A stretch of DNA of 64,000 bases from Candidatus Saccharimonadota bacterium (GTDB taxonomy: Bacteria > Patescibacteriota > Saccharimonadia > Saccharimonadales > Saccharimonadaceae), in NCBI GenBank assembly GCA_030445245.1, contig JAUCSD010000001.1:186001-250000 (forward strand), read 5' to 3'. A program made the translations under genes and the position numbers. Position 1 is the first letter of the stretch. The number at the start of each line of letters is the position of its first letter. Below, piece by piece: positions 14,743-64,000 of the stretch. The notes beneath the pieces are model-generated. The model was not told where the DNA came from. It ran no database searches and saw only the letters and a program-made list of their open reading frames with translations.

Positions 14743-14747
14743 TTGAC

Positions 14748-16314: not shown

Positions 16315-16329
16315 AAATTAAATAAAAAA

Positions 16330-16655: not shown

Positions 16656-16871
16656 TGCTACCACCTTACCTTCACATTGAGGTCGGATCGAAAAAATGAT
16701 GGCGAACACGCGCAGTCTGCCTACCATTTTTCTGAGACACGAAGTCAGCTTCTCGGCAAAGAAGCTACATCAGTATCTAGTAGGGGTTCATACGGAATTG
16801 TACGTACGTATGTCCGCCAGCTCAGGAGCCTGTCGCTTGGAGCGACCTGCATTTGAGATAACACTATTCCT

Positions 16872-16907
16872 GTCAAAAAACGCTTTGAAACAACGATGCG
16901 TTTTGAC
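16872..16907 (-). terminator. Terminator downstream of the helicase
   Basis: GTCAAAACGC pairs with GCGTTTTTTGAC on the minus strand, with the T run inside the descending arm. It lies 46 bases after the helicase stop. The remaining bases of 16656-16952 show only a short GTCGCT/AGCGAC hairpin. Confidence 0.5.
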
Positions 16908-16952
16908 GGCAGTGCTTCTCAGCTATTAAATATTATAAACCAGTTTAGCCGT

Positions 16953-19900: not shown

Positions 19901-20303
19901 GATTGCTATATTCGAGTTCATCAAAAATGCCACGAAGGAGTTGATAGCAGCTTAACTGGTCAGCGGCTCGGAAATTGGCGCCATGATAAAAGAATTCACC
20001 ATTATGATTGATGACGTCTGTGCCAAAACTGTGGAATGTATGGATAGCGACTTTATAGGCATTAACGCCAATGATATGGGTAAGACGTTCACGCATGGCG
20101 TTAGCACCACTATCGGTAAATGTGAGACAGAGGATATTTTCAGGAAGAACGTCAGTTTTCTTCAAGATGTTTGCAGCTCGCATACTAAGGAGTTCGGTCT
20201 TACCTGTGCCCGGCCCGGCAATAACCATCACTGGCCCGTCAATAAGATCAACGGCTTGTTTTTGGGCGAGATTGAGATGTGAGTAACGTTCAGTAAAATC
20301 CAT
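16953..20303 (-). CDS. UvrD/Rep-type helicase fused to PD-(D/E)XK nuclease
   Basis: 1116 aa. SF1A motifs are present: Q-motif LNLAQKQAV, Walker A AGPGTGKT (29-36), DEFQDTN (motif II), GDDDQAIYSFQGA (motif III), and near residue 730 MTAHKSKGLEFDTVYVIG, with FVAMTRAR later. The C-terminus holds a RecB-like nuclease signature, with GSLDLVDIQDQ and VTDYKTGK as the D...(D/E)xK residues at about 985-1005. The layout resembles AddA/RecB-type DNA end-processing enzymes, in one chain with no AddB gene nearby. TACAAT ends seven bases before the ATG (leaderless pattern). Confidence 0.9.
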   Translation of the reverse strand: MDFTERYSHLNLAQKQAVDLIDGPVMVIAGPGTGKTELLSMRAANILKKTDVLPENILCLTFTDSGANAMRERLTHIIGVNAYKVAIHTFHSFGTDVINHNGEFFYHGANFRAADQLSCYQLLRGIFDELEYSNPLASKMNGEYTHLSDTLTTISELKKSGLTSDELLAVLDANDHVIEVAEPLLAQVFAARLSKTTADQLAPLVEIIQRTNEEIELPGITSLARVLAGSLESTIAVAQETNSTKPLTSWRNTWFKKDETGEFVLKSRDRQKKLRATSFVYYQYLARMQEAELYDFDDMILRVVHAMEVFPELRFNLQEKYQYIMVDEFQDTNMAQMRILYDLTNNEINNGRPNILVVGDDDQAIYSFQGADVGNISAFRDLFNETVLITLTDNYRSSDTILSHARSVIKLGSDRLENHVPDLNKTLTAHFTPSETSVELVELPSVSDERSWLLNSIESALKGGQSAASIAVLARRHHEIMALLPYFASAGIPVNYERRDNVLDLDIIVLIEHASSILVALFEQRHKDADSLLPKLLSHPAFAIPPLDIWQLGLQAQQNHQLWMEIMATTPALKPLQNWLITTSQLLAHSHLEQMLDEIIGVPKHQTLASNPSLKLEQGTLHDESSPLEFVSPLYEHYFSAQQLKEAPDAYLTYLEALRTIRTKLVDYKPLETPTLQSFLEFIKLHRQLGSTITSVRPRTHHIDNAVNLMTAHKSKGLEFDTVYVIGAVDSAWGERVRTRNRLISYPENLPLAPSGDTFDERLRLFFVAMTRARMHLKISYSGADDKQKNTLPASFLIGETWQATQPQLPSSIESLTHSAELVWYQPIVTPLTPSMRELLAPALENYKLSSTHLNAFLDVSRGGPQAFLMNNLLRFPQATSPSAGYGSAIHTTLQRAHSHLTATGKHRPIEDILHDFEENLHSQHLTDRDFDIYLQKGSEALSRFLEVKYSEFSPSQKTELNFAGQAVFFEEAHLTGSLDLVDIQDQTITVTDYKTGKAIRNWTGKTDYEKMKLHRYKQQLMFYCLLIHHSRDYNKFTVEKSVIQFVEPTLNGDIISLEAQFSHEELARFRQLIHSVWRRIIMLDLPDTSAYEPSYKGVLEFEDDLIADTVPSTID

Positions 20304-20323
20304 TACTACTATTGTAGCGTAAA

Positions 20324-20872
20324 TCAGTCGTCGATGTTCGGGAACTCATCGTCGAAACTACTGAGGTCGTTCATGGCGTTTAATTCTACTTGTCGGGCGA
20401 TAGCAGCCCCGCCAACTACATAGTCTCGGAGTGATGGCCAGAAACGAACGGCACCCTGGCCTATGATATAGGTTGTTCGAGGGAGTTCATCGGTCAGCTG
20501 ATCTTTAGCGATGATTATTTTTGCAAGATGTTCATCCGATAATAACACTTCTTTCATGCGCATGATGTGGCGCATGACAGTAGGGTTATCGAGACCGTCT
20601 GTTGTTTGAAGACGCACATTAGGAGAGAGCGCCTCGTATATTCCCATGCCCGTAGAAAGTGCGGCTACGTGCTCACTGTCAAGTTGTGTTCGTGCAGCGC
20701 TACCAAGTACCTGGTGTCCTAGCCTATAGAGAAGACTAAACTGCTCTGCCTGAAGATGCTCCGCCTCAAGTCGTGCTGGATCTGCAAGAAACAGTTCTTC
20801 GAGCATTGCCGCTGTGCTGTCAGTAATGTCTCTTTTCGGAAAATCAGGTTGAAATTCGAAAGAAAGTTTCAT
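20324..20872 (-). CDS. Unidentified soluble protein
   Basis: 182 aa, predicted helical and soluble; no family recognised. The central part has a run of helices (NPTVMRHIMRMKEVLLSDEHLAKIII), and the C-terminus is acidic (DDEFPNIDD). The start at 20872 is preferred because TATAGT lies nine bases before it and the ATG at 20890 overlaps the promoter. It is followed by the helicase gene 20 bases further on, possibly as one transcript, but the helicase has its own -10 element. Confidence 0.6.
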   Translation of the reverse strand: MKLSFEFQPDFPKRDITDSTAAMLEELFLADPARLEAEHLQAEQFSLLYRLGHQVLGSAARTQLDSEHVAALSTGMGIYEALSPNVRLQTTDGLDNPTVMRHIMRMKEVLLSDEHLAKIIIAKDQLTDELPRTTYIIGQGAVRFWPSLRDYVVGGAAIARQVELNAMNDLSSFDDEFPNIDD

Positions 20873-20932
20873 AGTAGTATAACTATACACTATTTCGCAT
20901 TATTATCAACTTAATGCTACAATAGAGCTACT

Positions 20933-21421
20933 ATGCGTGACGAAATCTATGATGACATGGAGCTTGAAAAGCTTGCTAAAGACCGTTTCGGACTTGATAT
21001 TGATATTGCCCAAGTAATCGTGCGAGACATCGAAGTGAGTCGTACTGCGACTGCCACCGTCTTCCTGACCAAGAAGAAACAACTTCTGGTATATGTTAAC
21101 GGGCACTCTCGTCTGCTTCTTGGTGATATCAAAAAAATTGTCTCACGAATGGGACTCCGTGCTGAGATTTATTTTCCACCCAAAGGCCAACCTGACTACT
21201 TTGATATGATAGGCCATGAAAAGTTTCGTGAGGTATTTCCGGGACGTGGTCATATTAGTGATGCTGACATTCTCTTTTACCGAACCTTGGCACCCTATAA
21301 TCCAGCACTCGTACTCATTAGCGAAGTAAAAACCGGTGAAATTTATCAATACGACAGCGATGCGCGAAGTGACTGGCGCGTTGCCGCGCACTTTACTTAC
21401 CGTCGCATCAAAACCAGCTAG
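20933..21421 (+). CDS. Unidentified soluble protein
   Basis: 162 aa, alpha/beta by eye (VFLTKKKQLLVYVNG, LRAEIYFPPKG, ALVLISEVKTGEIYQYD); no family recognised. It diverges from the 20324-20872 gene, sharing a 60-base promoter region, and converges on the RlmD-like gene (three bases apart). TACAAT ends about nine bases before the ATG with no Shine-Dalgarno sequence. Confidence 0.6.
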   Translation: MRDEIYDDMELEKLAKDRFGLDIDIAQVIVRDIEVSRTATATVFLTKKKQLLVYVNGHSRLLLGDIKKIVSRMGLRAEIYFPPKGQPDYFDMIGHEKFREVFPGRGHISDADILFYRTLAPYNPALVLISEVKTGEIYQYDSDARSDWRVAAHFTYRRIKTS

Positions 21422-21424
21422 AAT

Positions 21425-22720
21425 TTATTTTAAATCAAGCACAACGAGATGCTCGATGTGAGGCGTTCGGGGGAAGAAGTTATAGCCACGATGAGCACGG
21501 ATGCCGTAGTTTTCGGCGAGGCGTGCTACATCGCGTGCCTGCGTAACAGGGTTACAGCTAAGGTAAATGATACGTGCAGGTTTTGCTTCGAGCAGCTTTT
21601 TAACGACATCTTCGTGAAGTCCGGCGCGTGGTGGATCAACGATTATCGTGGCGTCGGTCGTAATGTTTTCGAGGACGCTTTCGCTTGGTGCAAGAATTGC
21701 TCGAGCGGCTTTTTCACGCTGGAGTGCTGTGATATTACGCTCCATCTCACGCACGGCATGTTCACTAATTTCTACCATAGTAACATTGTTGCCACCTATA
21801 GTAAGGCCGATTGTTCCGACACCGCTGTATAGATCAACGGTTGGTTTGGTTGCATCTACCCATTCTTTCATGTCACGAAGTGCTTGTTCGTATACAGGAA
21901 TATTAATCTGGAAGAAGCCTTCCACAGCATAGGTGAATGGAATATCAAGGATAGTGTCGGTAAGGGATGTTGTTCCCCATGCTTGCATACGGTGAGTAAT
22001 GACACTAGCAGGGCTCTTAGGGTTACTGAAGATAAGTTCAAAGCCAGCAATGTTGAGTGTCTCAATTTCTTCAGGACTAAAGACGGTGAAGTTTTCATCC
22101 TTAACGTACAGTTGAGCGACGACATTTCCCTTTTGATCGCAACGAACGATGACTGTTTTAAGTACAAAAGCTTGAGTATCACGAGCTCGTAAAACATCAC
22201 GAATGGCGTGGGCAGCTTCGTTAATTGTAGGGTCGGCAAGGCTTGTGCCGTCGACGGGAATTTTACCGTGCGTGCCGCGACGGAAAAAAGCGAGGTCAAG
22301 TTGGGCTGATTCTTTGTCCCACCACCAGCTAAATTCGATTTTATTACGGTAGGCAAATTCTCGCTTATCGCTATAGACATCGATTGGTTCAGGGACGACG
22401 ATATCATGCAATTCAAATGCCTCTTCGATGAGAGCGGCTTTGTAGTGCTGCTCGGCGTCAAATGTCATGATTTGCCATGGGCTTGTAGAGAGGTAGCTCT
22501 CACCATCAACAGGTTCGATTCGTTCCTTACTTGGCTCGATAACTTCAGTTACAATGCCTTCAAGAAAACTAGATTTCTTTTTAGTAATCTGAATCTCGAC
22601 TTTTTCGCCAGGAAGACCGCCCCAGACGAATGCTTTTTTCCCGTAATCTAATTGACCAAGGGTTTGGCCGCCGCCAACGATTTTTTCAAGGGTAAGTGTT
22701 TTAAAGACTGGTTGTTTCAT
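21425..22720 (-). CDS. 23S rRNA (uracil-C5) methyltransferase, RlmD/TrmA type
   Basis: 431 aa. The N-terminal TRAM domain (about 1-65, FVWGGLPGEKVEIQITKKK) is followed by a SAM-binding Rossmann domain (VDLYSGVGTIGL, MVEISEHAV, IIVDPPRAGLHEDVV) and the catalytic-Cys motif YLSCNPVTQARDV near the C-terminus. It makes 5-methyluridine in rRNA or tRNA; RlmD and RlmC/TrmA cannot be separated here. The usual RlmD iron-sulfur Cys cluster is not obvious. TATACT ends eight bases before the ATG. Confidence 0.88.
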   Translation of the reverse strand: MKQPVFKTLTLEKIVGGGQTLGQLDYGKKAFVWGGLPGEKVEIQITKKKSSFLEGIVTEVIEPSKERIEPVDGESYLSTSPWQIMTFDAEQHYKAALIEEAFELHDIVVPEPIDVYSDKREFAYRNKIEFSWWWDKESAQLDLAFFRRGTHGKIPVDGTSLADPTINEAAHAIRDVLRARDTQAFVLKTVIVRCDQKGNVVAQLYVKDENFTVFSPEEIETLNIAGFELIFSNPKSPASVITHRMQAWGTTSLTDTILDIPFTYAVEGFFQINIPVYEQALRDMKEWVDATKPTVDLYSGVGTIGLTIGGNNVTMVEISEHAVREMERNITALQREKAARAILAPSESVLENITTDATIIVDPPRAGLHEDVVKKLLEAKPARIIYLSCNPVTQARDVARLAENYGIRAHRGYNFFPRTPHIEHLVVLDLK

Positions 22721-54812: not shown

Positions 54813-55154
54813 CGCACGTCTATAATTAATGAAAAATAAGAAGAGATTAAAATCTGAAGCTCTCGGTGTATTAATACACAGGGTCGACTACGCCGCCATT
54901 ACCCCATACGTTGCCAAGTTACCGATTCCATTTCCCAGTTTTACGGGTCCCCCAACGCTGCAATCTGGCTGCCCAACTGCCGTAGGCTTCCTGCTACACC
55001 CGAGGGAGGAATCGGAACGGTCGTCGATGTATTTTTACTTTTGGCTGGGAATAGTGAACGTGTTCCAGGAAGAAGCTACGCTCTTAGACTCCTCTTTCTC
55101 GCTACCTTGCAAATGAATATACTGTTTCTTTATATTTTTAGTTGGGCTAAATAT
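54813..55154. other. Region with a decayed tRNA-like fragment and no convincing gene
   Basis: An open frame from 54829 would encode 95 residues but has TATAAT directly against the ATG, odd composition and overlaps tRNA-like debris. A block near 55042-55083 reads as a weak tRNA 3' end on the minus strand (TGGCTGGG then TGTTCCAGGAAGAAGC). It is related to the blocks at 56020 and 59913. Confidence 0.4.
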
Positions 55155-55448
55155 TTAGAAGTCTTCATCAGGATTATCACTCGGTTCTTTACCCCATCGC
55201 CAAGTTGGCTTAGGTGAACTAGCCAATCCGAAAAGAATAATCGTCATAACGGCGAGCGCGAAAATCGCGAGAAAGGCAATGAGTTCACCGGCAGTCGGCT
55301 GTACTGGTTTTGCTGGCAAAAGAGTCGCAGCTATAAAAATAATCGCGATTTGCATACTGACAATGAGTGTTGCTATCCATGTCACTGGAGTCCACCCCCA
55401 TCCATAGCGGCGGCGTTTCATTAAATACGTTCTGTTGTTTTTTGCCAT
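55155..55448 (-). CDS. Small two-helix membrane protein
   Basis: 97 aa. Two helices (WIATLIVSMQIAIIFIAATL and GELIAFLAIFALAVMTIILFG), a basic N-terminus (MKRRRYGWGW) and an acidic tail (PSDNPDEDF). No family recognised. TATAAT ends six bases before the ATG, and the terminator for the next unit lies upstream. Confidence 0.7.
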   Translation of the reverse strand: MAKNNRTYLMKRRRYGWGWTPVTWIATLIVSMQIAIIFIAATLLPAKPVQPTAGELIAFLAIFALAVMTIILFGLASSPKPTWRWGKEPSDNPDEDF

Positions 55449-55468
55449 GTATTAATTATAGCAAATAA

Positions 55469-55492
55469 AAAATGACGATTCCTCGTCATTTT
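55469..55492. terminator. Terminator
   Basis: AAAATGACGA, loop TTCC, TCGTCATTTT. It is followed on the plus strand by AAGCATAATC and the tRNA-like block at 55507. Confidence 0.75.
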
Positions 55493-55506
55493 AAGCATAA
55501 TCAACT

Positions 55507-55540
55507 TGGCTGGCCACGTAACCCAAAATTGGAACACGAT
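55507..55540 (-). repeat. tRNA 3'-end-like fragment (weak)
   Basis: Begins TGGCTGGCC on the plus strand, the complement of a CCA-terminated tRNA 3' end. The T-arm consensus is lost. It sits directly beside the terminator at 55469, as do the other such fragments. Confidence 0.3.
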
Positions 55541-55591
55541 ATTAATTAGCCTACTTGCGATGTATAGAAAACTAATCGAGCTCAGCCTTCT

Positions 55592-55879
55592 TTAATGTGC
55601 CTTTTTCCCAAAAGCTCCGGGACCGGCATGAAAGAGACCGATCGCAAGCATTCCTAGCATAGTCGCAATCCAACATGCAGCGGGATACCTGGCAGGATCG
55701 ACTAACAATAGGAATAGTGGAGTCGTGGCTATTGCTAGCCAGCCCGCGATAAGATTGGGTATAGGCGTGCTGCCCAAGGCTGAGGTATAGGTTCGTTTAG
55801 TTATACCCCTAACGAAATGAGGAATGCCATTACCAAACCAAACACCTGCAAGGAAGCTAACTATAATTGTATTAATCAT
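55592..55879 (-). CDS. Small multi-pass membrane protein
   Basis: 95 aa with three hydrophobic helices (IIVSFLAGVWFGNGIPHFV, LIAGWLAIATTPLFLLL, WIATMLGMLAIGLFH). No family recognised. TATACT ends seven bases before the ATG at 55879. Confidence 0.7.
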   Translation of the reverse strand: MINTIIVSFLAGVWFGNGIPHFVRGITKRTYTSALGSTPIPNLIAGWLAIATTPLFLLLVDPARYPAACWIATMLGMLAIGLFHAGPGAFGKKAH

Positions 55880-55919
55880 CAAGATGAGTATACCTCAAAA
55901 GATATTCAGAAGACAATAT

Positions 55920-55970
55920 TGACCACCAGAAAGGATTCGAACTCATGCAATAGATTAGAAGATCAAACCA
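55920..55970 (-). repeat. tRNA 3'-half-like fragment
   Basis: On the minus strand it reads GAGTTCGAATCC, then TTTCTGGTGGTCA, a T-arm and acceptor end. CTTCTAA upstream looks like an anticodon loop, with TCT as anticodon. The 5' half is missing and stems mismatch, so it is not a functional tRNA. Confidence 0.45.
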
Positions 55971-56019
55971 AAAAATAAGAACACTCACTTACAGCGTTCT
56001 TACCTCTGTAATAATTTCT

Positions 56020-56065
56020 TGGCTGGGGCTAGTGGATATGTTTAGAACTTTTCAGGAAGAATCTA
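56020..56065 (-). repeat. tRNA 3'-end-like fragment, copy A
   Basis: TGGCTGGGGCTAGTGGATAT, continuing TTTAGAAC-TTTTCAGGA, on the plus strand. It differs from the block at 59913-59952 at only two positions over about 38 bases. Its minus-strand reading ends in CCA. Confidence 0.5.
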
Positions 56066-56100
56066 CAGCCTCACTCCGGCTAGTGAAGTACCTCGCATCT

Positions 56101-56685
56101 TTAGTAAGCAACCGGGCCTAGGAGCGCGTTAAAGATCATGTTTCGATCTTGCTGTTGAATACTCGTTCCTTCGTCGGCACATATAGATTGTGCACCGGAG
56201 GCATAATAGTAATACCCTGCTATCGGTTCGTTATTATTCACTACCGACGTGCTCACAAGGTTTTCTAGCTTTACTTTGGTTCTGCTCAATACAGCAAGTC
56301 TTATCACTGAACCCATATTATTAGGCTCAATACATTGTCCACCTAAAGCTTCTACGCGTTTTGTCGAAAACTCGTAGTCTTCTTCTATGTCCTTATTATT
56401 AGCTTCTACCTGCTTCTTGTAGTACGTAATCGCAGTAGTGTCAGTTGGCAACTTAAACTTTATATTCCAGTCTTTAAGTACTAAATAACCCTCATTCGGA
56501 TCTTTAACTTTTTCGGCTGGCTGGTTTGTTGTCGGTTTCTTTTGGTTAGAGCTTGTATCTGCAGATTTTTTATTGATAAAATTCTGCCAAAAAACAAGCC
56601 CGAGAGTAGCGACAAGAGCAATAACTAGAATGATAATGATAACGACGTGGGTGCTGCCTGTTTGTTTGGAAGAAGTTTTAATCAT
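56101..56685 (-). CDS. Single-helix membrane-anchored protein
   Basis: 194 aa. An N-terminal membrane helix (HVVIIIILVIALVATLGLVFW, about 13-33) is followed by a Ser/Lys/Pro-rich spacer and a soluble extracytoplasmic domain with two Cys (GQCIEP, QSICAD) that may pair. The NEGYLVLKDWNIKFKLP segment resembles the start of small Patescibacterial surface proteins; function unknown. TATTCT lies just before the ATG. Confidence 0.7.
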   Translation of the reverse strand: MIKTSSKQTGSTHVVIIIILVIALVATLGLVFWQNFINKKSADTSSNQKKPTTNQPAEKVKDPNEGYLVLKDWNIKFKLPTDTTAITYYKKQVEANNKDIEEDYEFSTKRVEALGGQCIEPNNMGSVIRLAVLSRTKVKLENLVSTSVVNNNEPIAGYYYYASGAQSICADEGTSIQQQDRNMIFNALLGPVAY

Positions 56686-56737
56686 ACTCTAAGAATACAT
56701 TATTCTGCTTATATTTATTATTAAATTTTTACAAACA

Positions 56738-56762
56738 AAAGAACTTCATTATGAAGTTCTTT
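56738..56762. terminator. Terminator
   Basis: AAAGAACTTCA, a TTA loop and TGAAGTTCTTT, 15 bases before the tRNA-like block at 56777. Confidence 0.8.
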
Positions 56763-56949
56763 AAGCATAATCATCTTGGCTGGGGCGGAGGGATTCGATC
56801 TCCCCGACATTGCCGTCCACGAGGACGGTGAAGTCGTTGGGAACCGGGCGCCGATCACTATAGATGTCGGCGCGAGTCCGGTCGAGGCCGAGTCGCTTGA
56901 GGTCGGTGGCGTACAAACGGGCGGGCGGGTTGTAAAGGTGAACGCGCAT
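56761..56949 (-). CDS. GC-rich orphan, 62 aa, 3' end in tRNA-like debris
   Basis: 62 aa. TTGACG, a 17-base spacer and TATAGT form a strong promoter about 80 bases upstream, and TGAGGAGACG lies before the ATG. The first 50 residues (MRVHLYNPPARLYATDLKRL, then RADIYSDRRPVPNDFTVLVDGN) are followed by a C-terminus read through the tRNA-like block at 56777-56808. The gene may therefore have lost its original end by recombination. No family recognised. Confidence 0.55.
   Translation of the reverse strand: MRVHLYNPPARLYATDLKRLGLDRTRADIYSDRRPVPNDFTVLVDGNVGEIESLRPSQDDYA
56777..56808 (-). repeat. tRNA 3'-end-like fragment (best preserved)
   Basis: The minus strand reads GATCGAATCCCTCCG, then CCCCAGCCA, very close to a tRNA T-arm, acceptor strand and CCA. 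The sequence upstream encodes the orphan protein, so no tRNA 5' part is present. Confidence 0.55.
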
Positions 56950-57120
56950 GGCGTCTCCTCAGGTATGAAGGAATGACCGGCCATTTTGGCAGGTCGGGAC
57001 TCAAAGTTAATGAATCTTGAAAGATACTATATATTAATAATGTATAAACGTCAACTAAGCTAAGTGCGGAGACTTGAATTATATATTAAGAGACTTTTCT
57101 AATGGAGACACTAAAAATAA

Positions 57121-57158
57121 TTATTTAGTCATGAAGGATTCAAACACATACATCAGAT
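57121..57158 (-). repeat. tRNA 3'-end-like fragment (weak)
   Basis: The minus strand reads GTGTTTGAATCCTTCATGAC, a T-arm-like stretch without a good acceptor end. The degenerate hairpin at 57168-57207 separates it from the next fragment. Confidence 0.3.
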
Positions 57159-57217
57159 AATAAAAAAGCTCCTCGAAGATTATATTTCTTGGAACTCTTT
57201 TTTTCTGAATAAACTCA

Positions 57218-57250
57218 TGGCTAGAGATAAGGGACTCGAACTTAGCTAAT
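57218..57250 (-). repeat. tRNA 3'-end-like fragment
   Basis: The minus strand reads AAGTTCGAGTCCC, then TTATCTCTAGCCA, a T-loop and CCA-ended acceptor with broken stems. Confidence 0.45.
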
Positions 57251-57291
57251 AGCATGTGCTATTTTTATTATAATCTTATCGTCTTATGAAC

Positions 57292-57978
57292 CTAATCAGC
57301 AATCTCAAGCTCAAGAGGTAGATGGTCGGATACCTCATTGCTGGGAACGGTAAACTTCAAACAACGAACCGCAGGACTTAAAAATACATAGTCAGAGTAG
57401 TATTGCTTAGTATCGGGATACCTCTCCCAGACGTAACGATTGCGGGTATTCGTAATGCCGTATTCGTTAATCAGATCATGATAGTCCCGCGCACTGAACA
57501 TCTGTATGCTATTAGTCTCTGGAAAGACATTGAAGTCTCCACCGATAACAACCTGCTTTTCGTTCTTGAAGAATTCAAGAAGTGTCGTTGTTTGTAGTAT
57601 TCTATCTGGATTATCGAGCTTATCAACTGGACGAGACATGCCATGGAAGTTACATACGAACAGACGTTCTTCTCCTGTCTTTATTTCAACATACAAACCA
57701 AGTCCTGCTCGTGGATGATCCTTGAGGATCGAGCCAGAAGATATCACTGTAATATCTTTGCGAACATACGTGGTTTGTGCAAAGTCGTTGGTACTAGTGA
57801 TGAACTTCCTGTCAGTATAGACATCATATTCGGGTAAGGCTTGCGCGCATAGGTACTGTAGATCGCCGTCCGCTTCTTGGAAGCAAAAAATGTCAGTAGT
57901 TGGAGCCTTTTGTTGCAAATACGATGTAAGTGCTTGCTCGATTTTTCCGTGCCATACATTCAAAAATACTATTCTCAT
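57292..57978 (-). CDS. Endonuclease/exonuclease/phosphatase-family protein
   Basis: 228 aa. The EEP fold motifs are in order: LNVWHGK, FCFQEADG (metal-binding Glu), NFHGMS, IGGDFNVFPETN (Asp/Asn) and the final SDHLPLELEI (Asp-His). Substrate may be DNA, RNA or a phospholipid. The start at 57978 fits the fold; the frame from 58041 adds an unlikely 21 residues. Confidence 0.88.
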   Translation of the reverse strand: MRIVFLNVWHGKIEQALTSYLQQKAPTTDIFCFQEADGDLQYLCAQALPEYDVYTDRKFITSTNDFAQTTYVRKDITVISSGSILKDHPRAGLGLYVEIKTGEERLFVCNFHGMSRPVDKLDNPDRILQTTTLLEFFKNEKQVVIGGDFNVFPETNSIQMFSARDYHDLINEYGITNTRNRYVWERYPDTKQYYSDYVFLSPAVRCLKFTVPSNEVSDHLPLELEIAD

Positions 57979-58076
57979 CTGCCCTACTTTGCCATAATAG
58001 TCTGTTAGAAGCAAGCAAGTCTTTGCTTCGCAATAAATCAAGTAGTAGCTATATGAACCTCGTTTGATAATGTGAC

Positions 58077-58147
58077 ATCGCCTATTAGTCTCACGTCTTT
58101 ACTGCGGAACCAATAGGCGATATGGAGCGCCCTCACTGAGGAGCGCT
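58077..58147 (-). terminator. Two hairpins after the 48-aa gene
   Basis: AGCGC-CCTC pairs with GAGG-A-GCGCT around the stop codon (58126-58147). Further on, ATCGCCTATT (58077-58086) pairs with AATAGGCGAT (58112-58121). Confidence 0.55.
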
Positions 58148-58292
58148 ACAATGTCGCATGACAACGCGAGCACACCGTCTTAGGGTGCTTCGCGGTTCCG
58201 CTTACAGGACGGGCGCTATGTCCATGCTGCGCACAGAACTCTGCCGGAGTCGGCTTCGGTGGTTGCTGTGCGGGAGTCGTGTTTGACATCAT
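58146..58292 (-). CDS. 48-aa GC-rich zinc-ribbon-like protein
   Basis: 48 aa, below common size cut-offs. GAGGAGGTG lies five to eight bases before two ATGs (58292 and 58289). The N-terminus is Pro/Gln-rich (TTPAQQPPKPTPAEF). Cys20-x2-His23 and Cys41-x2-Cys44 form a plausible zinc knuckle. It is followed by strong hairpins. GC-rich and SD-led, as in the other orphans. Confidence 0.6.
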   Translation of the reverse strand: MMSNTTPAQQPPKPTPAEFCAQHGHSARPVSGTAKHPKTVCSRCHATL

Positions 58293-58375
58293 ATTCACCT
58301 CCTCATCGGTGAAGACTAAACAGCAATCAAAAAGAAGAGGATGTTGATATCAAGAAGACTTGTAGTCACTATCTC

Positions 58376-59722
58376 CTACATCTTCATTTGCTTGTAGGCT
58401 TCTTGCAAAATCTCTAGCATTTTAGCGTAGGTTTCGACCGAGTTATTCTCTGTCTTTTGTGGTGAGTAGAGGTACACGACATTGTCCACTACCTCTATAT
58501 TTACCTCAAATGGCAGCGCCTCTAGCTTTTCCATAAAGGCCGGGTGCAGTAACTCAAAGCTTGTCGCACCTTCGTATGTGGTAGCAAACACTTCGTATTT
58601 TTTATTAAAATCACCCCACTCCATCGATATTTTTTCAAGCCTTTTAGGCTTAAGCAAATTTGTCCACTTTTTACGCCGTACTACGATGTCACCATACGTC
58701 TTTGGCACGTTCGTCTGGGCTATGAGGTAACTACCACTATTTTTTGGATTGAGATCATAGGTATATAGCTGCAAAAGATAATTATTATTGTAAATACCAA
58801 TGATATGGTTATTGATGTCGGACACGCCAAAGTTTACCCGACCAAATAGCCGCCCGCGCTTAGGTATCAACAGCCAACCCCAATCTAGGCTGTAAAAGTA
58901 GCCGTACTTCTGTGCTAGTTGCTGCAACGAGGCGTCAGCCTTCCACGTAGTAGCCGTTACTTGCTCGATGCCATCTAGGTACCATTCGTTTCCTACCCGC
59001 TTAAAGCTCCAGTATTCAGTAAACTGGCTTTTGTCTACGTATAATTCTTCGCCTGTCAACTCATCTATTAACACATCTCTAGCATGCGCCGTAATACCAA
59101 CAGTTACCGTATCCTCGGCGTTATTGAGGCTGTCGCGTAACTCGGTGATCATTACCTGATCAATCACGGGTTCGTTGACTTTGTTAATGCGCCTTGCCTG
59201 CAGCAGCGCCGCAATCATAAGGCTGGAATGCTGCTGGTAGTGTAACGTCATGTACTGGCTAAATCGCTCCCATGACCGAGCTGTCCAGTCCTGTTGATAC
59301 ATCATAAACACGTCGCTGGCACGCCGAAGTATCACTTGCTCGTTCCAGACAGGATCAAACGAGGCTGCTTGCTTTAGCTCTTCTGTTTCCCGCTTGTTGC
59401 GTTTTAGCTTAGAGAACCAGTTGTATAGCCCGGCGCCCGTACCAAGTACTGCGCAAGCGGCGATCATGCCACCGATAAAAATACCAGTCGATGCCACCCA
59501 AAATACGCAGTAAATAGCGCAGAGCATCCAGCCAATAACTTGCGCTGCCATCCAAGATGTCAAATTCTCCTGCCTCTTACGCAAGAGCGCGCCTATAAAG
59601 TGCATAGGCAAATACCCTAGTAAATAGATGAGTACGCCACCACCGTCTCCGCCACTCGAAGAACCTCCGCCGCCGGCGCGGGCTACAGAGTGCAGTGGTT
59701 CAAGAAGTTGATGGAAGAGCAT
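58376..59722 (-). CDS. Membrane protein with Tim44-like and DUF3137-like domains
   Basis: 448 aa. A Gly/Ser-rich stretch (about 17-29) and two or three helices (about 30-105) anchor it. Residues about 130-260 match the Tim44-like pattern (ASDVFMMYQQDWTARSWERF, ELRDSLNNAEDTVTVGITAHARD, YWSFKRVGNEWYLDGIEQV). The rest resembles DUF3137 (NYLLQLYTYDL, YEVFATTYEGATSFELLHPAFM, VVDNVVYLYSPQ). Tim44-like domains bind membranes or polypeptides; the role here is unknown. TATGAT lies 12 bases before the ATG. Confidence 0.72.
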   Translation of the reverse strand: MLFHQLLEPLHSVARAGGGGSSSGGDGGGVLIYLLGYLPMHFIGALLRKRQENLTSWMAAQVIGWMLCAIYCVFWVASTGIFIGGMIAACAVLGTGAGLYNWFSKLKRNKRETEELKQAASFDPVWNEQVILRRASDVFMMYQQDWTARSWERFSQYMTLHYQQHSSLMIAALLQARRINKVNEPVIDQVMITELRDSLNNAEDTVTVGITAHARDVLIDELTGEELYVDKSQFTEYWSFKRVGNEWYLDGIEQVTATTWKADASLQQLAQKYGYFYSLDWGWLLIPKRGRLFGRVNFGVSDINNHIIGIYNNNYLLQLYTYDLNPKNSGSYLIAQTNVPKTYGDIVVRRKKWTNLLKPKRLEKISMEWGDFNKKYEVFATTYEGATSFELLHPAFMEKLEALPFEVNIEVVDNVVYLYSPQKTENNSVETYAKMLEILQEAYKQMKM

Positions 59723-59880
59723 AGAAGTAATTCTATCATATCACTCTTGCTTTACCTGGGATACCCAATGAGACTTGCTATGTAGAAGCCTAGGCAAAGA
59801 AGACTTCATCCAGGCTTTCAACAGTACAAACACTTATCGCTTACACACCAACACTATATTTATACATGCCTTAAGTACGA

Positions 59881-59909
59881 GAAAAGATTGACATATCGTC
59901 AATCTTTTC
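59881..59909. terminator. Terminator
   Basis: GAAAAGATTGAC pairs with GTCAATCTTTTC, four bases before the tRNA-like block at 59913. It shares GATTGAC with the hairpin at 63098. Confidence 0.75.
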
Positions 59910-59912
59910 TCA

Positions 59913-59952
59913 TGGCTGGGGCTAATGGATATGTTTAGAATTTTTCAGGATA
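59913..59952 (-). repeat. tRNA 3'-end-like fragment, copy B
   Basis: Near-identical to the block at 56020-56057, with two differences (TAATGG for TAGTGG, and AATTTTT for AACTTTT). Confidence 0.5.
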
Positions 59953-59972
59953 TATTTCAAAAAGAACTCGCT

Positions 59973-60551
59973 TTAAGAAAATACTAGCTTTAGGGCTTCA
60001 TATCGTGGTAGAACTTCCTGTTTCACGTCGTCGAAAAATAACTTCTTGTTGAAGTCTTTCTCCATTTTACTGAGCATCCATGTCTTGAATACCCGATAGT
60101 TATCTTCTGGTCCGTAATGCCGCCAGCAGAAGAGGGGGTAAAAGTCCGTCAGGAAGTGCGCCGCGCCATCTGCCGTAGCCATGACTTTGCCTTCAGGCGT
60201 AGTAGGCATGATCTCCTTACAGCTATGAGGCTTGATGATTTCGTTTACTATAAATGTAGTTTCATCCTTGCTAAAACCGCTTTTTTGCAATAGTTCGTCA
60301 GCTAGGGCAAGACTTCTTGCTTCATGTTTAGGGTCTCTCCTGGCCATCACAGCATCTGCTATATCATGTAATAAGGCTCCAGCAACAGCCAGCTCAACGT
60401 TTGCGTGTTGAATTGTAGCTATCCTCTCAGTGTGATCAGCGACAACAAGTACGTGATTTTTATAGCTCCAGTCAATCCATACATCGGCTTCCGGATTATT
60501 AGCGGTATAGAGTGTCTCAATATTTTTTCTTAAAGTATTTAGTTTCTGCAT
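59973..60551 (-). CDS. HD-domain phosphohydrolase
   Basis: 192 aa. His in HVLVVADH, His-Asp in GALLHDIAD and a later Asp in ATADGAAH form the HD metal site. It is probably a small nucleotide or nucleic-acid phosphohydrolase; the substrate is unknown. It is not closely similar to the HD protein at 53558. TATCAT ends six bases before the ATG. Confidence 0.82.
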   Translation of the reverse strand: MQKLNTLRKNIETLYTANNPEADVWIDWSYKNHVLVVADHTERIATIQHANVELAVAGALLHDIADAVMARRDPKHEARSLALADELLQKSGFSKDETTFIVNEIIKPHSCKEIMPTTPEGKVMATADGAAHFLTDFYPLFCWRHYGPEDNYRVFKTWMLSKMEKDFNKKLFFDDVKQEVLPRYEALKLVFS

Positions 60552-60568
60552 GTATTTATGATACCAAA

Positions 60569-60595
60569 CAAAAAAGACTTCGAAAGAAGTCCTTT
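60569..60595. terminator. Terminator
   Basis: AAAAGACTT, loop CGAA, AGAAGTCCTTT, an imperfect stem next to the tRNA-like block at 60610. Confidence 0.6.
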
Positions 60596-60609
60596 AGATA
60601 TAATAATCT

Positions 60610-60635
60610 TGGCCAGAGAAGAGGTTCGTTAATTT
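60610..60635 (-). repeat. tRNA 3'-end-like fragment
   Basis: The minus strand reads AACGAACCTCTTCTCTGGCC, then A, an acceptor strand with CCA and a damaged T-loop. Confidence 0.35.
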
Positions 60636-60704
60636 AATATTCAGCGATGACAATATAGATTGCAATATTGAAGAAATCAAAAGCTTACTAGAAGATGGCT
60701 AGAT

Positions 60705-61220
60705 CTAATGCTTGAGTGTGTAAAATTCCTCAAATGCTCTTACCATTGCTGGCGTAAAGTCATCAGGGTTTGCTGCGATGTTCTCTTGCAAGTTCTCGTT
60801 GGTGAACCATTTTACCTCACTTACCTCTTCGGGTTGAAGTGTAAATCTTGTGTCTTGTGAGACTCTACCCTCAAAGACACCATTGAACTGGTTAATTGTC
60901 TTGTCATCTTCTTTCTTTTGCACTAAGAACTTGCCTATAAAAGTCAGAGGAGTCTCTACGCCAATTTCTTCTTTTAGTTCACGCAGAGCAGAAGTTTCAT
61001 ATGTTTCGCCTTCATCCACATGACCACTTGCCGCATTTGTCCATCGTCCTGGATAGAGTGGTTTTTCTAAACTACGTTTTTGTAAAAGGAAATTTCCATT
61101 CTCATCTTGCAAGACAATTTGCACAAGACGATAAAAAGAACCTCTAGCCCATGCTTCTTGGCGAGTAGCGGCTCCTATGGGTTGATCGTTTTCATCTACA
61201 ATCTGAATTCGTTCCGGCAT
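60705..61220 (-). CDS. Nudix hydrolase, IDI/YfcD-like
   Basis: 171 aa. The Nudix box is GHVDEGETYETSALRELKEEIG, with RELKEE at its core. The N-terminus (IVDENDQPIGAATRQEAWARGSFYRLVQIVL) and the following FLLQKRSLEKPLYPGRWTNAASGH are typical of the isopentenyl-diphosphate isomerase/YfcD subgroup. Isomerase activity is not claimed. TTAGGAGAGG precedes the ATG. Confidence 0.88.
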   Translation of the reverse strand: MPERIQIVDENDQPIGAATRQEAWARGSFYRLVQIVLQDENGNFLLQKRSLEKPLYPGRWTNAASGHVDEGETYETSALRELKEEIGVETPLTFIGKFLVQKKEDDKTINQFNGVFEGRVSQDTRFTLQPEEVSEVKWFTNENLQENIAANPDDFTPAMVRAFEEFYTLKH

Positions 61221-61303
61221 ACTGTACCTCTCCTAATTTGTTTGTTTTAGTATACCATTCCTAGGGTTTCGTTGTGTCTCTTGCCCTACGTCAAAACCAA
61301 ACT

Positions 61304-61333
61304 AAAAATACCTCATTTCACTGAGGTATTTTT
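61304..61333. terminator. Terminator
   Basis: AAAAATACCTCA and TGAGGTATTTTT pair perfectly over 12 bp. Confidence 0.8.
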
Positions 61334-61357
61334 GGAGTTTGATTAAATATAATCTCA

Positions 61358-61398
61358 TGGCTGGTGATGAGCCCGATGCTTCGAACCTATGCGACAGA
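61358..61398 (-). repeat. tRNA 3'-end-like fragment, copy C
   Basis: The minus strand reads GGTTCGAAGCATCGGGCTCA, then TCACCAGCCA. It aligns over about 30 bases to the block at 63217-63250 with five differences. Confidence 0.5.
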
Positions 61399-61414
61399 TA
61401 GAAAGAATAAAATA

Positions 61415-61450
61415 AAAAGCAATCCCGCCAACCATGTGGTAAGCGGGAAT
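61415..61450 (-). terminator. Terminator after 61469-61738
   Basis: On the minus strand TTCCCGC and GCGGGA pair across an ACCACATGGT-containing loop, followed by GCTTTTTATT. Confidence 0.55.
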
Positions 61451-61468
61451 CTCGACTTCGAAAGACTG

Positions 61469-61738
61469 TCAGGGATGCAAGGTGATACGCGTGTCGGAGG
61501 GCACTGATGTACCACACATAGCACAGCGCGCTGACGCGACCGAATCTTCGCCACTGGAGCTCCAGTAGATCCGCCAGGGTCGCGACCGGGGACGCTCATA
61601 GGCTTCACGCCCCTTTTCGGGACATTCCTTGGGCGTATACTTGTATTCAGTCTGGACCTTGCGGCTCAAACAGAGAAGCAAGAGGATGCCGGTGGGTACC
61701 AGCGCTATTGCTGTAGCGGTCAGGTCGTCGATGGTCAT
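61469..61738 (-). CDS. GC-rich orphan, membrane-anchored protein with CxxC
   Basis: 89 aa. One membrane helix (ATAIALVPTGILLLLCL) is followed by a basic cytoplasmic or external tail containing CPEKGREAYERPRSR, then ARCAMCGTSVPSDT, where CAMC suggests half of a zinc ribbon. GAGAGGCAG before the ATG acts as Shine-Dalgarno sequence. No family recognised. GC-rich and monocistronic, with its own terminator. Confidence 0.6.
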   Translation of the reverse strand: MTIDDLTATAIALVPTGILLLLCLSRKVQTEYKYTPKECPEKGREAYERPRSRPWRIYWSSSGEDSVASARCAMCGTSVPSDTRITLHP

Positions 61739-61949
61739 TTCTGCCTCTCAACTCTTTCGGAGCAAGATCTTTATACATTAACATGTAAATAAATATAAAG
61801 CAATAGCAATTTAGTATGAATGACTCGTTTTACTCGCAGTGAACCATCTCGGTAGCCCTTTGCGCATATCGTATCTCTTACTGCTTACGCTTTATATTTG
61901 AGTAACCATTGACATAATATAATTTAAGTAGCATAATAAGATACATATT

Positions 61950-62990
61950 ATGACATCGATCGAACAAATATTATTACAGTCTACTCGGGATGAACACCGT
62001 GAGGCTTTTGACTATGCAAACACACATACCTCTTCTGAGTTACTCAAGGACATGGAGTATCGACGCGTGGGCGGCGTTGCTATTGCAATCGCTCGCCCTT
62101 TAGAAGGACCGAGTCTCGATGAGACCATAGAAGCAGGCGATGCACCCATCGTACGTTTCTTGCCTTGGGGAAATAATGCTACCAAGAGCGATTTTAACCA
62201 GCCCGCCCAGACACAGTTACTCGCGAACGTTGCTAATAGGCCAATTATTGCGATGAGTTCTCCTTCAGTAGGCTCGACACTGAAGTTGAGCCGTAGGGAT
62301 AGAAAATACATACAGGACGGCGACTTTTCACCAGTAGCTCGTGAAATGCTTGCGAGTCTCGATGAACTCACCGAAGGTAAATTAGCTCGGGTTGCATTCA
62401 TGGGAGCCTCACAGGGCGCTGCCTTTGGTATTGCAACCGCCTCTGAGGCCCTACGTCGAGATCATTTCGAAACTGTTGAAGGCGTACTTGCGCTTGGCCT
62501 GCCCAATGTTAGGGAGCGCGGCCGTCCGGAACTATTAAACGATTTTTCTAAAGCTGGTACCGTCGAACTTCATGAAACACTTGTGCGAGGTGGCGTCCCG
62601 CAGCTCGTAACCGCCAATCACTTATCGCTACACGAGCCAAAGCGGCCATTGCACTTTTCTATGGTGACAACCGCTAAAATGTCCCGACACCCCATTCTTG
62701 GGTATGCCCTTTCAGGCGGTATGGGCAAAATTGACACGATGTGGCAACGTGACATACCGACAATTTTGCGAAATAGTGTCCCGCTTACGCTTGTGAGTGA
62801 GGGCCAAGGCGCGATTATGCCGACTGAGTCACTTCAAGCCAGAGTTGCCGAGCTTGAGGCCGGGCATGAGGAATTGGGATTAGATGAGGCTATGCTTCGT
62901 CGACTAGGTCTCGTTTCAATTGTTGATGGGAATCATACGTTAGCTGACCATATGCCGACGGTCGCAGCTCTGCTCGATCGAATCTCTTAA
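61950..62990 (+). CDS. Alpha/beta-hydrolase-like protein
   Basis: 346 aa. The nucleophile elbow is probably GASQGA (Ser at about 151) and GNHTLADH (about 327-334) could supply the catalytic His. The region RFLPWGNNATKSDFNQ may form the oxyanion loop. The fold is inferred; a lid-like helical region lies at about 195-290. It is the only plus-strand gene in the 54.8-63 kb block. TAAGAT ends seven bases before the ATG. Confidence 0.7.
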   Translation: MTSIEQILLQSTRDEHREAFDYANTHTSSELLKDMEYRRVGGVAIAIARPLEGPSLDETIEAGDAPIVRFLPWGNNATKSDFNQPAQTQLLANVANRPIIAMSSPSVGSTLKLSRRDRKYIQDGDFSPVAREMLASLDELTEGKLARVAFMGASQGAAFGIATASEALRRDHFETVEGVLALGLPNVRERGRPELLNDFSKAGTVELHETLVRGGVPQLVTANHLSLHEPKRPLHFSMVTTAKMSRHPILGYALSGGMGKIDTMWQRDIPTILRNSVPLTLVSEGQGAIMPTESLQARVAELEAGHEELGLDEAMLRRLGLVSIVDGNHTLADHMPTVAALLDRIS

Positions 62991-63097
62991 TTTTTGCATA
63001 AATCCACTAAATAGTATGGATAGTTGCGATTAGAATAAGGCCTCATTGGTATGTCACATTTTCATATGCGTTGAACCCTTTGGCTAAACAGGAATCA

Positions 63098-63138
63098 CCC
63101 ATTAAAAAGATTGACAAATTGTCAATCTTTTTAATGGG
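63098..63138. terminator. 19-bp perfect hairpin, bidirectional terminator
   Basis: CCCATTAAAAAGATTGACA pairs exactly with its complement across a three-base loop (AAT). It is the longest perfect palindrome in this part of the window and overlaps the next tRNA-like fragment. Confidence 0.7.
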
Positions 63139-63172
63139 TGGGGAGGAGAAAAGTATTCGAACTTTTTCATAG
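63134..63172 (-). repeat. tRNA 3'-end-like fragment
   Basis: The minus strand reads AAAAGTTCGAATACTTTT, then CTCCTCCCCACC, a T-arm with a 6-bp stem plus an acceptor-like end. Confidence 0.45.
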
Positions 63173-63175
63173 CAA

Positions 63176-63205
63176 AAAAGTCTACAGATCAATCTGTAGA
63201 CTTTC
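63176..63205. terminator. Terminator
   Basis: AAAGTCTACAGA and TCTGTAGACTTT pair over 12 bp, 11 bases before the next fragment. Confidence 0.75.
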
Positions 63206-63216
63206 TCATAATTTCA

Positions 63217-63250
63217 TGGCTGGACGTGAGTCCGACGCTTCGAACCCCCC
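63217..63250 (-). repeat. tRNA 3'-end-like fragment, copy D
   Basis: The minus strand reads GGTTCGAAGCGTCGGACTCA, then CGTCCAGCCA, a near-copy of the block at 61358-61398. The rest of 63251-63445 shows nothing convincing. Confidence 0.5.
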
Positions 63251-63445
63251 CTGATTGCCAATTTTATTCTACTTGGACAAAGATTAGAGAAGCTCAACTT
63301 TCTTTATGGGAAGGATATTGTAGTTGCAAGGTACGATATAGCTTGGATTCCATAGATCATTTCGTTAGTCTATCTGTCGTATCATCTATCTTGGTTAAGA
63401 TTGTCGCCTCGCATTCTACGATATTCCGAATGTTAGTTTCTTGGA

Positions 63446-63770
63446 TCAGCCTATCTCCCGCAGTTCTTGCGAGCAGCGACAGGCGACCGCAAACTTGCGA
63501 GCCCACTTCTCGGCGGCCTTACGGTTTGGCAATTCGAGGACAGTGAACCCGCCAGTGATCTCCGAGTCCGGATAGATTTCAGCTGACACTGATCCATCGG
63601 CGGAGACTAGCACACCGGATCAACCTTCTCTTCAATTCCGCCAGCGAATACGTGCACATCTGCGGCTATCGCCTCTTCAGTGACCGCATTGGCTTCTGCC
63701 CCAGAATCAGGAGCTCTTCATCCGTGAGCTGTATGGCTTTACTTGGGAAAGAAATGAGGTATTTTGTCAT
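63446..63770 (-). pseudogene. Frameshifted YCII-family (DGPF-type) protein
   Basis: The start MTKYLISFPSKAIQLTDEEL is in one frame. AEANAVTEEAIAADVHVFAG, continuing GIEEKVDPV, is in a second. VLVSADGSVSAEIYPDSEIT, continuing GGFTVLELPNRKAAEKWARK and ACRCSQELREIG, is in a third, ending at TGA. Together they make a full YCII-like protein of about 105 residues with two frameshifts, as in homologues common in Actinobacteria. Unless these are sequencing errors, the gene is dead. GC-rich coding style. Confidence 0.7.
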
Positions 63771-63848
63771 ATTTTTAATTGCCTTTCGTAGTTTTCTTGA
63801 TATTTCTATTATACAGTTTGAGTCGTCTACTTAGTCGTTGTAAGATAC

Positions 63849-63880
63849 AAAAAAAGAACTCCACATGGAAGTTCTTTTTT
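63849..63880. terminator. Terminator
   Basis: AAAAAAGAACTCC and GGAAGTTCTTTTTT pair with one bulge, 14 bases before the fragment at 63894. Confidence 0.7.
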
Positions 63881-63893
63881 ATAGTAATAATCT

Positions 63894-63925
63894 TGGCTGG
63901 GGAGGAGGTTCTGGAATAGAGCTTT
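63894..63925 (-). repeat. tRNA 3'-end-like fragment (weak)
   Basis: The plus strand begins TGGCTGGGGAGGAGGTTCTG, the complement of a CCA-ended acceptor strand with a damaged T-arm. It lies at the same distance from its terminator as the other copies. Nothing else is seen to the right edge. Confidence 0.35.
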
Positions 63926-64000
63926 CTAGAAAACCGAACCGATTTCGAAAGATACGTAGGCCACTAAACGAAAAACAGGAAAACCAATAGTACTGAAAGT

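Follow-up and report, generated by a model that had tools for sequence, protein, structure and literature searches.

What are the short tRNA-like blocks that separate single genes near one end of this window (the whole stretch of DNA that was analysed, 64,000 nucleotides), and how did they arise? We identified ten junction sites, each made up of CCAGCCA and its flanks, at 55045-63897 of the window, all ten on the minus strand. This agrees with a preliminary description, in which eight to eleven blocks pointing in one direction were counted. Each site is named below by the position of the G of its GCCA, and is listed with its left half, core and right half where these could be assigned:

63870..63930, minus strand: junction site 63897; left half type E ATTCCAGAACCTCC, core CCCCAGCCA, right half AGATTATTA
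63850..63880, minus strand: terminator-like hairpin of site 63897
63200..63255, minus strand: junction site 63220; left half type G; right half family R3, hairpin GTCTACAGAT..ATCTGTAGAC
61340..61395, minus strand: junction site 61361; left half type G
61304..61333, minus strand: terminator-like hairpin of site 61361
60592..60700, minus strand: junction site 60613; left half type F; antisense tail WPEKRFVNLIFSDDNIDCNIEEIKSLLEDG
60572..60595, minus strand: terminator-like hairpin of site 60613
59882..59990, minus strand: junction site 59916; left half type C, antisense tail WLGLMDMFRIFQ...; right half R2, hairpin 59882-59908
57200..57250, minus strand: junction site 57221; left half type A, tRNA-like
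56760..56810, minus strand: junction site 56780; left half type A, tRNA-like GATCGAATCCCTCCGCCCCAGCCA
56738..56762, minus strand: terminator-like hairpin of site 56780
56000..56120, minus strand: junction site 56023; left half type C, antisense tail WLGLVDMFRTFQEESTASLRLVKYLASLVSNRA
55492..55545, minus strand: junction site 55510; right half family R1
55469..55492, minus strand: terminator-like hairpin of site 55510
55030..55120, minus strand: junction site 55045; left half type D, antisense tail WLGIVNVFQEEATLLDSSFSLPCK; no recognisable site lies farther from the tRNA

A position-weight scan of the whole genome, using a matrix trained on the same sites that it recovers, gave 38 matches above 16 bits, compared with 0-1 in shuffled genomes. 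In an outside control of 727 kb from other genomes, no match exceeded 14.4 bits. Two pairs previously thought to be near-copies are indeed so (93% identity over 41 nt for 56020/59913 and 85% over 39 nt for 61358/63217). The hairpin spacing had been described as near-constant; at four sites the stem begins 17-18 nt past the core, and at a fifth the distance is 28 nt. Terminator-like hairpins number 11 in the region, compared with 7.0 +/- 2.6 in shuffles; because this overall excess is only modest, it is the constant placement that is notable. Most blocks had been read as a T-arm plus acceptor strand. This proved incorrect, because tRNA likeness is limited in most of them to the short core, and the T-stem is absent from many.

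The 3' end CCCAGCCA is found in tRNA-Gln only, among the 39 tRNAs of the genome. No full tRNA was identified in the window. An intact tRNA-Gln(TTG) gene is present at 66898-66972, 2.9 kb beyond the window edge, with two further sites before it. Elsewhere in the genome, tRNA-Gln(CTG) heads a 64-kb array of 15 sites. In total, 27 sites lie behind the two tRNA-Gln genes, in the orientation of the tRNA and all on the minus strand. An intact tRNA at one end, followed by repeated tRNA 3'-end sites of the same orientation, is the arrangement of an additive island. A tRNA cluster, the target first suggested, is not involved, because each array is attached to one tRNA-Gln gene. Comparable sites occur in relatives downstream of about half of the tRNA-Gln loci fetched, with about 35 sense and 2 antisense to tRNA-Gln.

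Synteny with other genera indicates about 108 kb and 39 kb of extra DNA downstream of the two tRNA-Gln genes. The following feature marks the side of the island away from the tRNA:

8382..22720, no strand assigned: conserved neighbourhood; its distance from tRNA-Gln(TTG) is 44 kb here, compared with about 5 kb in G031/G043

Within one genus, the distance from the same tRNA to the flank is 0.8-1.7, 5.6 or 13.9 kb. Thus, variable DNA lies between the tRNA and a flank conserved in relatives, in comparisons made between species and genera; an empty site at strain level was not found in these comparisons. The displaced flanks, and the sites behind tRNA-Gln, bear out the original suggestion that tRNA 3' ends are attachment sites at which repeated integration leaves fragments at borders. 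In two genomes (G189 and G229), a pattern search for tRNA-Gln ends between tRNA-Gln(CTG) and the flank found no further ends; therefore, the inserts there end in arms unlike the pattern.

Comparison of 67 sites (2211 pairs) gave 150 pairs with similar left halves, 104 with similar right halves and 6 similar in both, compared with 7.1 expected. Left and right halves thus assort independently, and therefore exchange takes place at the CAGCCA core. In antisense, most left halves code for the C-terminal half of a small ORF that is coupled to genes for large serine recombinases (LSRs). A tail profile was built from 12 sites in genomes other than this one and searched against all six frames of the genome: array sites account for the ten best matches (E 2.7e-10 to 0.28) and the best match away from them has E 1.5, although the profile and the array sites have a WLG core in common. 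The description of the blocks as decayed tRNA fragments is not supported, because in most of them the incoming element contributed the upstream half, which holds the antisense tail of the LSR-linked ORF.

Genes for LSRs abut the 3' end of a tRNA and point into it in 35 of 55 cases, and the tRNA is tRNA-Gln in 17, a share inflated by the choice of the LSR-B set from a tRNA-Gln array. The small ORF coupled to LSR-B spans the core in 15 of 16 loci, and LSR-B also occurs within the arrays of G036 and G004. The LSRs at the att sites of L197 and L094 have Resolvase N-terminal, Recombinase and zinc-ribbon domains. The genome studied here encodes one LSR, at site 585650 (Resolvase domain detected, Recombinase domain slightly below the cut-off, 20.6 vs 21.1), and has an LSR remnant at site 551121. 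Two observations count against a role for LSRs: no trace of an LSR was found in the window's own array, and the right halves of the cassettes (AATTATT type) are unlike those of observed LSR-B elements.

We conclude, with a probability of roughly 80%, that the array is an LSR-mediated accretion island at the 3' end of tRNA-Gln(TTG). Anchoring to tRNA-Gln, core exchange, tail homology, LSR adjacency and displaced flanks are computed observations; from these we infer that LSRs of several families, with a common target, catalyze insertion. Mobile DNA circles would recombine with the tRNA end at the conserved core CAGCCA (the discriminator base plus CCA). The tRNA would remain intact because an identical core arrives with the incoming circle, along with a replacement for the downstream half that includes a terminator-like hairpin. 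The previous downstream half would be displaced together with the left arm of the incoming element, and each "fragment" would therefore be a hybrid junction (attR) composed of the left half of the later-arriving element, the common core and, as right half, the sequence that previously flanked the tRNA downstream. Judged by position, the youngest insert would be the one nearest the tRNA. Full elements carry the LSR gene at their tRNA-proximal end, directed into the tRNA. In the main family, the small ORF starts at or beside the LSR stop codon and runs across the core; therefore, integration would split it and leave an orphan antisense C-terminal half at attR.

Most inserts carry one or two genes. 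Those in the window are:

61950..62990, plus strand: 346 aa, no Pfam match; the sole large gene opposing the others in the window part of the array
61469..61738, minus strand: 89 aa, no assigned function
60705..61220, minus strand: Nudix/IDI-like protein (PF00293), single-gene cassette
59973..60551, minus strand: HD-domain protein (PF01966), single-gene cassette
58376..59722, minus strand: 448 aa, Tim44-like/DUF3137
57292..58041, minus strand: exo/endonuclease-phosphatase family (PF03372)
56101..56685, minus strand: 194 aa, no assigned function, single-gene cassette
55592..55882, minus strand: 96 aa, no assigned function, single-gene cassette
55155..55448, minus strand: 97 aa, no assigned function, single-gene cassette

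Some cargo genes have homologues in other arrays, with about 40-65% identity, and an 8-kb conjugation block is shared with G004 (mostly 77-92% identity); no identical cassette was found when cargo was compared between arrays. The Nudix cassette was considered as a mobile unit in named genomes and rejected: homologues, including some in Saccharibacteria MAGs, are not flanked by these sites.

The cassettes could be nothing more than a graveyard, in which complete LSR elements of 5-25 kb, either conjugative or phage-like, integrated serially and deletions later removed the recombinase and most genes of each. We consider this nearly as probable as not. The second array includes an LSR with a 25-kb conjugative-like element, the LSR remnant noted above, and a PLD-like gene whose distance from the core is fixed; two sites have the intact gene and a third has a truncated copy. 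Accretion with decay is also the standard course of ICE/IME tandems (PMC5704250). However, random deletion is expected to give ragged ends and LSR scars, whereas the 58 intervals between sites have a median length of 884 bp, 26 of them contain a single gene, and in 18 of 19 intervals with a single sense gene a distance of 24-171 bp separates the stop codon from the core that follows. Many intervals are thus compact single-gene cassettes without an LSR that end near a recombination site, the layout of an integron. Small cassettes also lie directly behind intact tRNA-Gln in several genera (L096, L115, L127, L129).

These LSR-less single-gene cassettes may be mobilised in trans, or may be shrunken full elements. 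A more tentative extension of the accretion reading, to which we give somewhat less credence than to decay, is an equivalent of the integron based on serine recombinases. Small cassettes, each with one gene and a promoter and with minimal attachment arms, would be captured singly at tRNA-Gln by LSRs acting in trans, and the LSR-coupled ORF spanning attP would be broken by integration and restored by excision, possibly as a directionality switch. The hosts of this proposed capture system are small-genome, apparently patescibacterial bacteria. A search of IMG/VR viral contigs for a free attP circle, with an LSR query and four patterns, gave no match.

Construction of the array by tRNA-targeting tyrosine integrases that were later lost, the agents first proposed, is very improbable. 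tRNA 3' ends are the usual targets of such integrases, and some type A sites (585650, 365358 and L197:331) carry 35-46 bp of tRNA-Gln, above the usual core length. However, no PF00589 protein was found near any tRNA-Gln in 61 genomes, and the sites have LSR genes, adjoining and pointing into tRNA-Gln, and LSR-linked tails instead. Neither a tyrosine recombinase beside the tRNA, as in classical islands and tycheposons, nor, in the 61 genomes, IntI with attI was identified. Xer/dif mobilisation was considered, because GATTATGCTTAAA loosely resembles a dif arm, and was set aside. That the blocks are structured or processed RNA, with tRNA-like 3' ends and terminators serving mRNA 3'-end formation, is least credible of all: every block directly follows a gene and precedes a terminator-like hairpin, but an Rfam scan at gathering thresholds found no match at the blocks, many lack the T-stem, and they lie mainly downstream of tRNA-Gln in the same orientation with freely reshuffling halves.

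Several known systems share features with this array. SCC and composite SCC islands of staphylococci use serine recombinases at a fixed chromosomal gene end and form tandems that include recombinase-less elements, as here. Their target is rlmH rather than tRNA-Gln, their units are usually many kilobases long, and the ccr genes are not known to be split by integration. Integrons likewise have compact, mostly single-gene cassettes, largely in one orientation, with a fixed entry and a recombination site ending each gene, in both mobile and chromosomal forms. However, IntI is a tyrosine recombinase and attC sites are folded; here, entry is at a tRNA, cassettes have a terminator-like hairpin at their start and the arrays have no IntI nearby. 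SSV-type archaeal integrases, which are tyrosine recombinases, also have a recombinase-linked coding sequence that spans attP and is split upon tRNA integration. There the int gene itself is split; here it is a small ORF after the serine recombinase or, in other families, the LSR C-terminus.

The tRNA-anchored additive flexible genomic islands of streamlined bacteria, in Ca. Actinomarinales (PMC7771536) and at tRNA-Lys in Methylophilaceae (PMC10872708), resemble the array, as excerpts of these papers describe them, in cassettes added at a tRNA, partial-tRNA repeats, and a fixed place with variable size and content. The repeats here differ in being short cores with element-derived left halves, and the same excerpts describe no serine recombinase, split recombinase-linked ORF or half-exchange analysis. 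Tandem accretion of ICEs, IMEs and CIMEs through site-specific recombination, the subject of a review (PMC5704250), also involves serial integration at one site, decay of older elements and chimeric att sites between them. The tRNA-targeting IMEs in a table of that paper have tyrosine recombinases; the array here differs in its LSRs and in that many units are single genes.

If the LSR-mediated accretion reading is correct, very small-genome, probably epibiotic bacteria acquire genes through a defined entry point, using serine rather than tyrosine recombinases and cassettes of integron-typical size. The split ORF tail beside CCAGCCA would then be a marker for cassette islands in metagenomes, and the LSRs would form a set with a naturally common, conserved tRNA target. 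It would also provide a testable idea, that a serine integrase locks its insertion by cutting its own companion gene.

The genome, a single contig of 1,164,240 bp of which positions 186001-250000 form the window, encodes 39 tRNAs as predicted by ARAGORN, none of them inside the window. We went through all of it in stretches of 20 kb. The preliminary description reported fragments of tRNA 3' ends, and their shared core corresponds to the end of an intact tRNA, tRNA-Gln, the only kind among the 39 that ends in CCCAGCCA. The tRNA-Gln genes are:

252898-252972 (window coordinates 66898-66972), minus strand, tRNA-Gln(TTG), which lies upstream of the array, 2.9 kb beyond the end of the window
613876-613950, minus strand, tRNA-Gln(CTG)

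Using an iterative position-weight scan (window site 55510 was added by eye), we located 12 such fragments, or sites, behind tRNA-Gln(TTG), ten of them in the window, and 15 behind tRNA-Gln(CTG), spread over 64 kb. All are in tRNA sense. Isolated sites at 365358 and 955206 (one with ~35 bp of tRNA-Gln) are far from any tRNA-Gln, and are perhaps relocated array pieces. There are 38 hits above 16 bits in the genome (counting tRNAs and three doubtful ones) versus 0-1 in shuffled genomes. Because these sites also served to train the matrix, an outside control is important: no score exceeded 14.4 bits in 727 kb of other genomes.

In the tRNA direction, each site comprises a left half of ~25-90 bp, the core C(C)AGCCA and a right half. 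Left halves fall into recurring types, of which type A is tRNA-like. The others are:

type B, TTGGAACAAGTCCCTCC
type C, TTCTAAACATATCC
type D, CCTGGAACACGTTC
type E, ATTCCAGAACCTCC
type F, AACGAACCTC
type G, TTCGAAGC

The right half is usually [AT]GA-AATTATT-like, with a hairpin that begins 17-28 nt past the core in the scanned cases. Right-half families recur across genera and are also found directly behind intact tRNA-Gln genes (e.g., family R3 in the related genomes G028 and G004). We compared 67 fragments, taken from this genome and its relatives: the left halves are alike in 150 pairs, the right halves in 104 and both halves in 6. Given that 7.1 pairs alike on both sides are expected under independence, the halves join freely at the core. 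Judged from these comparisons, free joining is the expected product of site-specific recombination there; neither duplication nor gradual decay of tRNA copies would yield it. R3 right halves (genome 613163 and 609665, window 63220) have a second T-arm-like stretch, AAAGTTCGAATCYCTTTTCTCC, beyond the hairpin, as if from a gene-less mini-insert without its core. A 62-aa ORF (MRVHLYNPPARLYATDLKRLG...; window 56760-56952, minus strand) crosses site 56780 and stops in its right half, so that this site is in part coding sequence on the sense strand.

The fragments had been tentatively ascribed to tyrosine recombinases, an attribution that these genomes do not support. No member of the tyrosine recombinase family PF00589 was identified near any tRNA-Gln in 61 genomes; most genomes have one strong match, perhaps Xer. 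Instead, in the elements read directly, large serine recombinases (LSRs) adjoin the tRNA and point into it. We assessed 55 distinct LSR genes whose flanks were long enough, and in 35 of them a tRNA 3' end is at or near the stop codon (Gln 17, a share inflated because one query family came from a tRNA-Gln array; Glu 5; Met, Gly, Leu and Trp 2 each; five others 1 each).

The LSR-B family, present in ~30 genomes at roughly 40-60% identity, is most often 70-135 bp from tRNA-Gln. LSR-B was examined at 16 loci. In 15 of these, the LSR stop codon is only a few bases from the start of a small ORF (M[ST]NQT..N....LRSIWLG) that crosses the core. In integrated copies this ORF runs on into antisense tRNA (...WLGMRDSNPRSRDQNPLPYHLAN), and the left half of array sites, read in antisense, encodes its other C-terminal half (WLGRRDLFQTFD...EIR.LLDEE). 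We searched all six frames of this genome with a profile of 12 such tails from other genomes, and the ten best matches are all at array sites (E 2.7e-10, 5e-9, 9e-7, 4e-6, 2e-4, 8e-4, 0.006, 0.047, 0.11 and 0.28; the next, elsewhere, 1.5), a signal partly due to the shared WLG core. The strong matches span 29-31 positions, and one begins beyond this core. Because there are at least two further tail types (DFILVGQRLEQLGF and the GLVPK type of an element at locus L103), several LSR families appear to share the tRNA-Gln target.

One LSR is kept in the genome:

583972-585810, at site 585650, LSR of 612 aa (PF00239, E 7.8e-9)

It heads a ~25-kb element ending at site 560215 that encodes TraG/VirB4-like and TrwB-like ATPases, a type I restriction-modification system and a PLD-like protein. 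We consider 560215-585810 a putative integrative conjugative element; an 8-kb block is common to G004, mostly at 77-92% protein identity. A second LSR, a fragment, is at site 551121, and none was found in the window's own array.

Across all arrays, 58 intervals of up to 6 kb between sites (cassettes; length was the sole criterion for calling ORFs) measure 884 bp at the median, and 26 contain a single gene. The stop codon is 24-171 bp ahead of the next core in 18 of 19 intervals with a single sense gene, a compact gene-to-core fit that is integron-like. No LSR that serves the compact cassettes in cis was identified. LSR-less cassettes may have been mobilised in trans or may have shrunk from larger elements. 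The PLD-like gene is present at three sites: at 560215 and 604676 it begins 122-130 bp from the core, and at 609665 it is truncated, so decay of larger elements does happen. The compact fit differs from what random deletion predicts.

Cargo in the window includes a Nudix/IDI-like enzyme, an HD hydrolase, an exo/endonuclease-phosphatase protein, a Tim44-like protein and several unknowns. The nearest homologues of one cargo gene are in MAGs, at about 50% identity, and in a Candidatus Saccharibacteria MAG at 45%. Together with the small genome size, they point to Patescibacteria, probably Saccharibacteria. Just past the window edge but inside the array, and against its direction, are an 82-aa ORF and then a gene for an asparagine-synthase-like protein (PF00733; genome 250107-251989, window coordinates 64107-65989), a pair reminiscent of the precursor and cyclase of a lasso peptide or another RiPP. 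In the tRNA-Gln(CTG) array, a full 6-phosphogluconate dehydrogenase gene (PF00393, 591285-592799) is cargo of a cassette-sized interval. This array also encodes three large proteins (585852-587285, 593045-594706 and 611319-612854) that are related and resemble one another at the N-terminus; collagen-like GPAGPAGP stretches occur in at least one. All three may be surface proteins spread with cassettes.

The family and order were represented by 61 genomes, and tRNA-Gln was located in 59 of them. Further sites occur in about half of 40 downstream regions fetched from relatives, about 35 in sense versus 2 antisense to the tRNA. A gene block ~1.6-5 kb behind tRNA-Gln(CTG) in G035, G034 and G030 begins here at 503 kb, with order and direction kept, about 110 kb from that tRNA. 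Since genes ~5 kb from tRNA-Gln(TTG) in G031 and G043 are 44 kb away here (window 22.7 kb and below), the stretch at window ~22.7-66.9 kb is lineage-specific; its tRNA-proximal 12 kb holds the recognisable sites. Within one genus, a stretch ~0.8 kb behind tRNA-Gln(CTG) in G034 is at 5.6 kb in G189, and another, at 1.7 kb in G034, is at 13.9 kb in G229, where LSR-B is next to this tRNA. Empty sites in relatives, proposed as a check in the preliminary description, are thus approximated, with the flank near the tRNA in G034 and displaced in G189 and G229, at the level of species rather than strains. Draft contigs of G004, G026, G012 and G040 (L095, L126, L206 and L210) break off within ~50-570 bp behind tRNA-Gln; variable inserts or repeats at this place would be expected to disrupt assembly in this way.

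Earlier papers describe islands built up by addition at tRNAs and marked by recurring tRNA pieces in Actinomarinales (PMC7771536) and Methylophilaceae (PMC10872708), and treat tandem accretion of decayed ICE/IME as established (PMC5704250). We found no literature on such arrays in Saccharibacteria or with serine recombinases, in a search that left out most subscription journals and bioRxiv preprints, so absence is unproven. In these genomes, the 3' ends of LSR genes also fall at or within the antisense of genes for tRNA-Glu, Met, Pro, Cys, Val, Gly, Leu, Asn, Trp and Asp (loci L168-L171, L174, L175, L178, L180, L182, L184, L187-L189, L214, L220, L226, L234 and L242). Judging by these gene ends, LSRs seem to target tRNAs generally in this group, with the LSR C-terminus apparently read off the tRNA.
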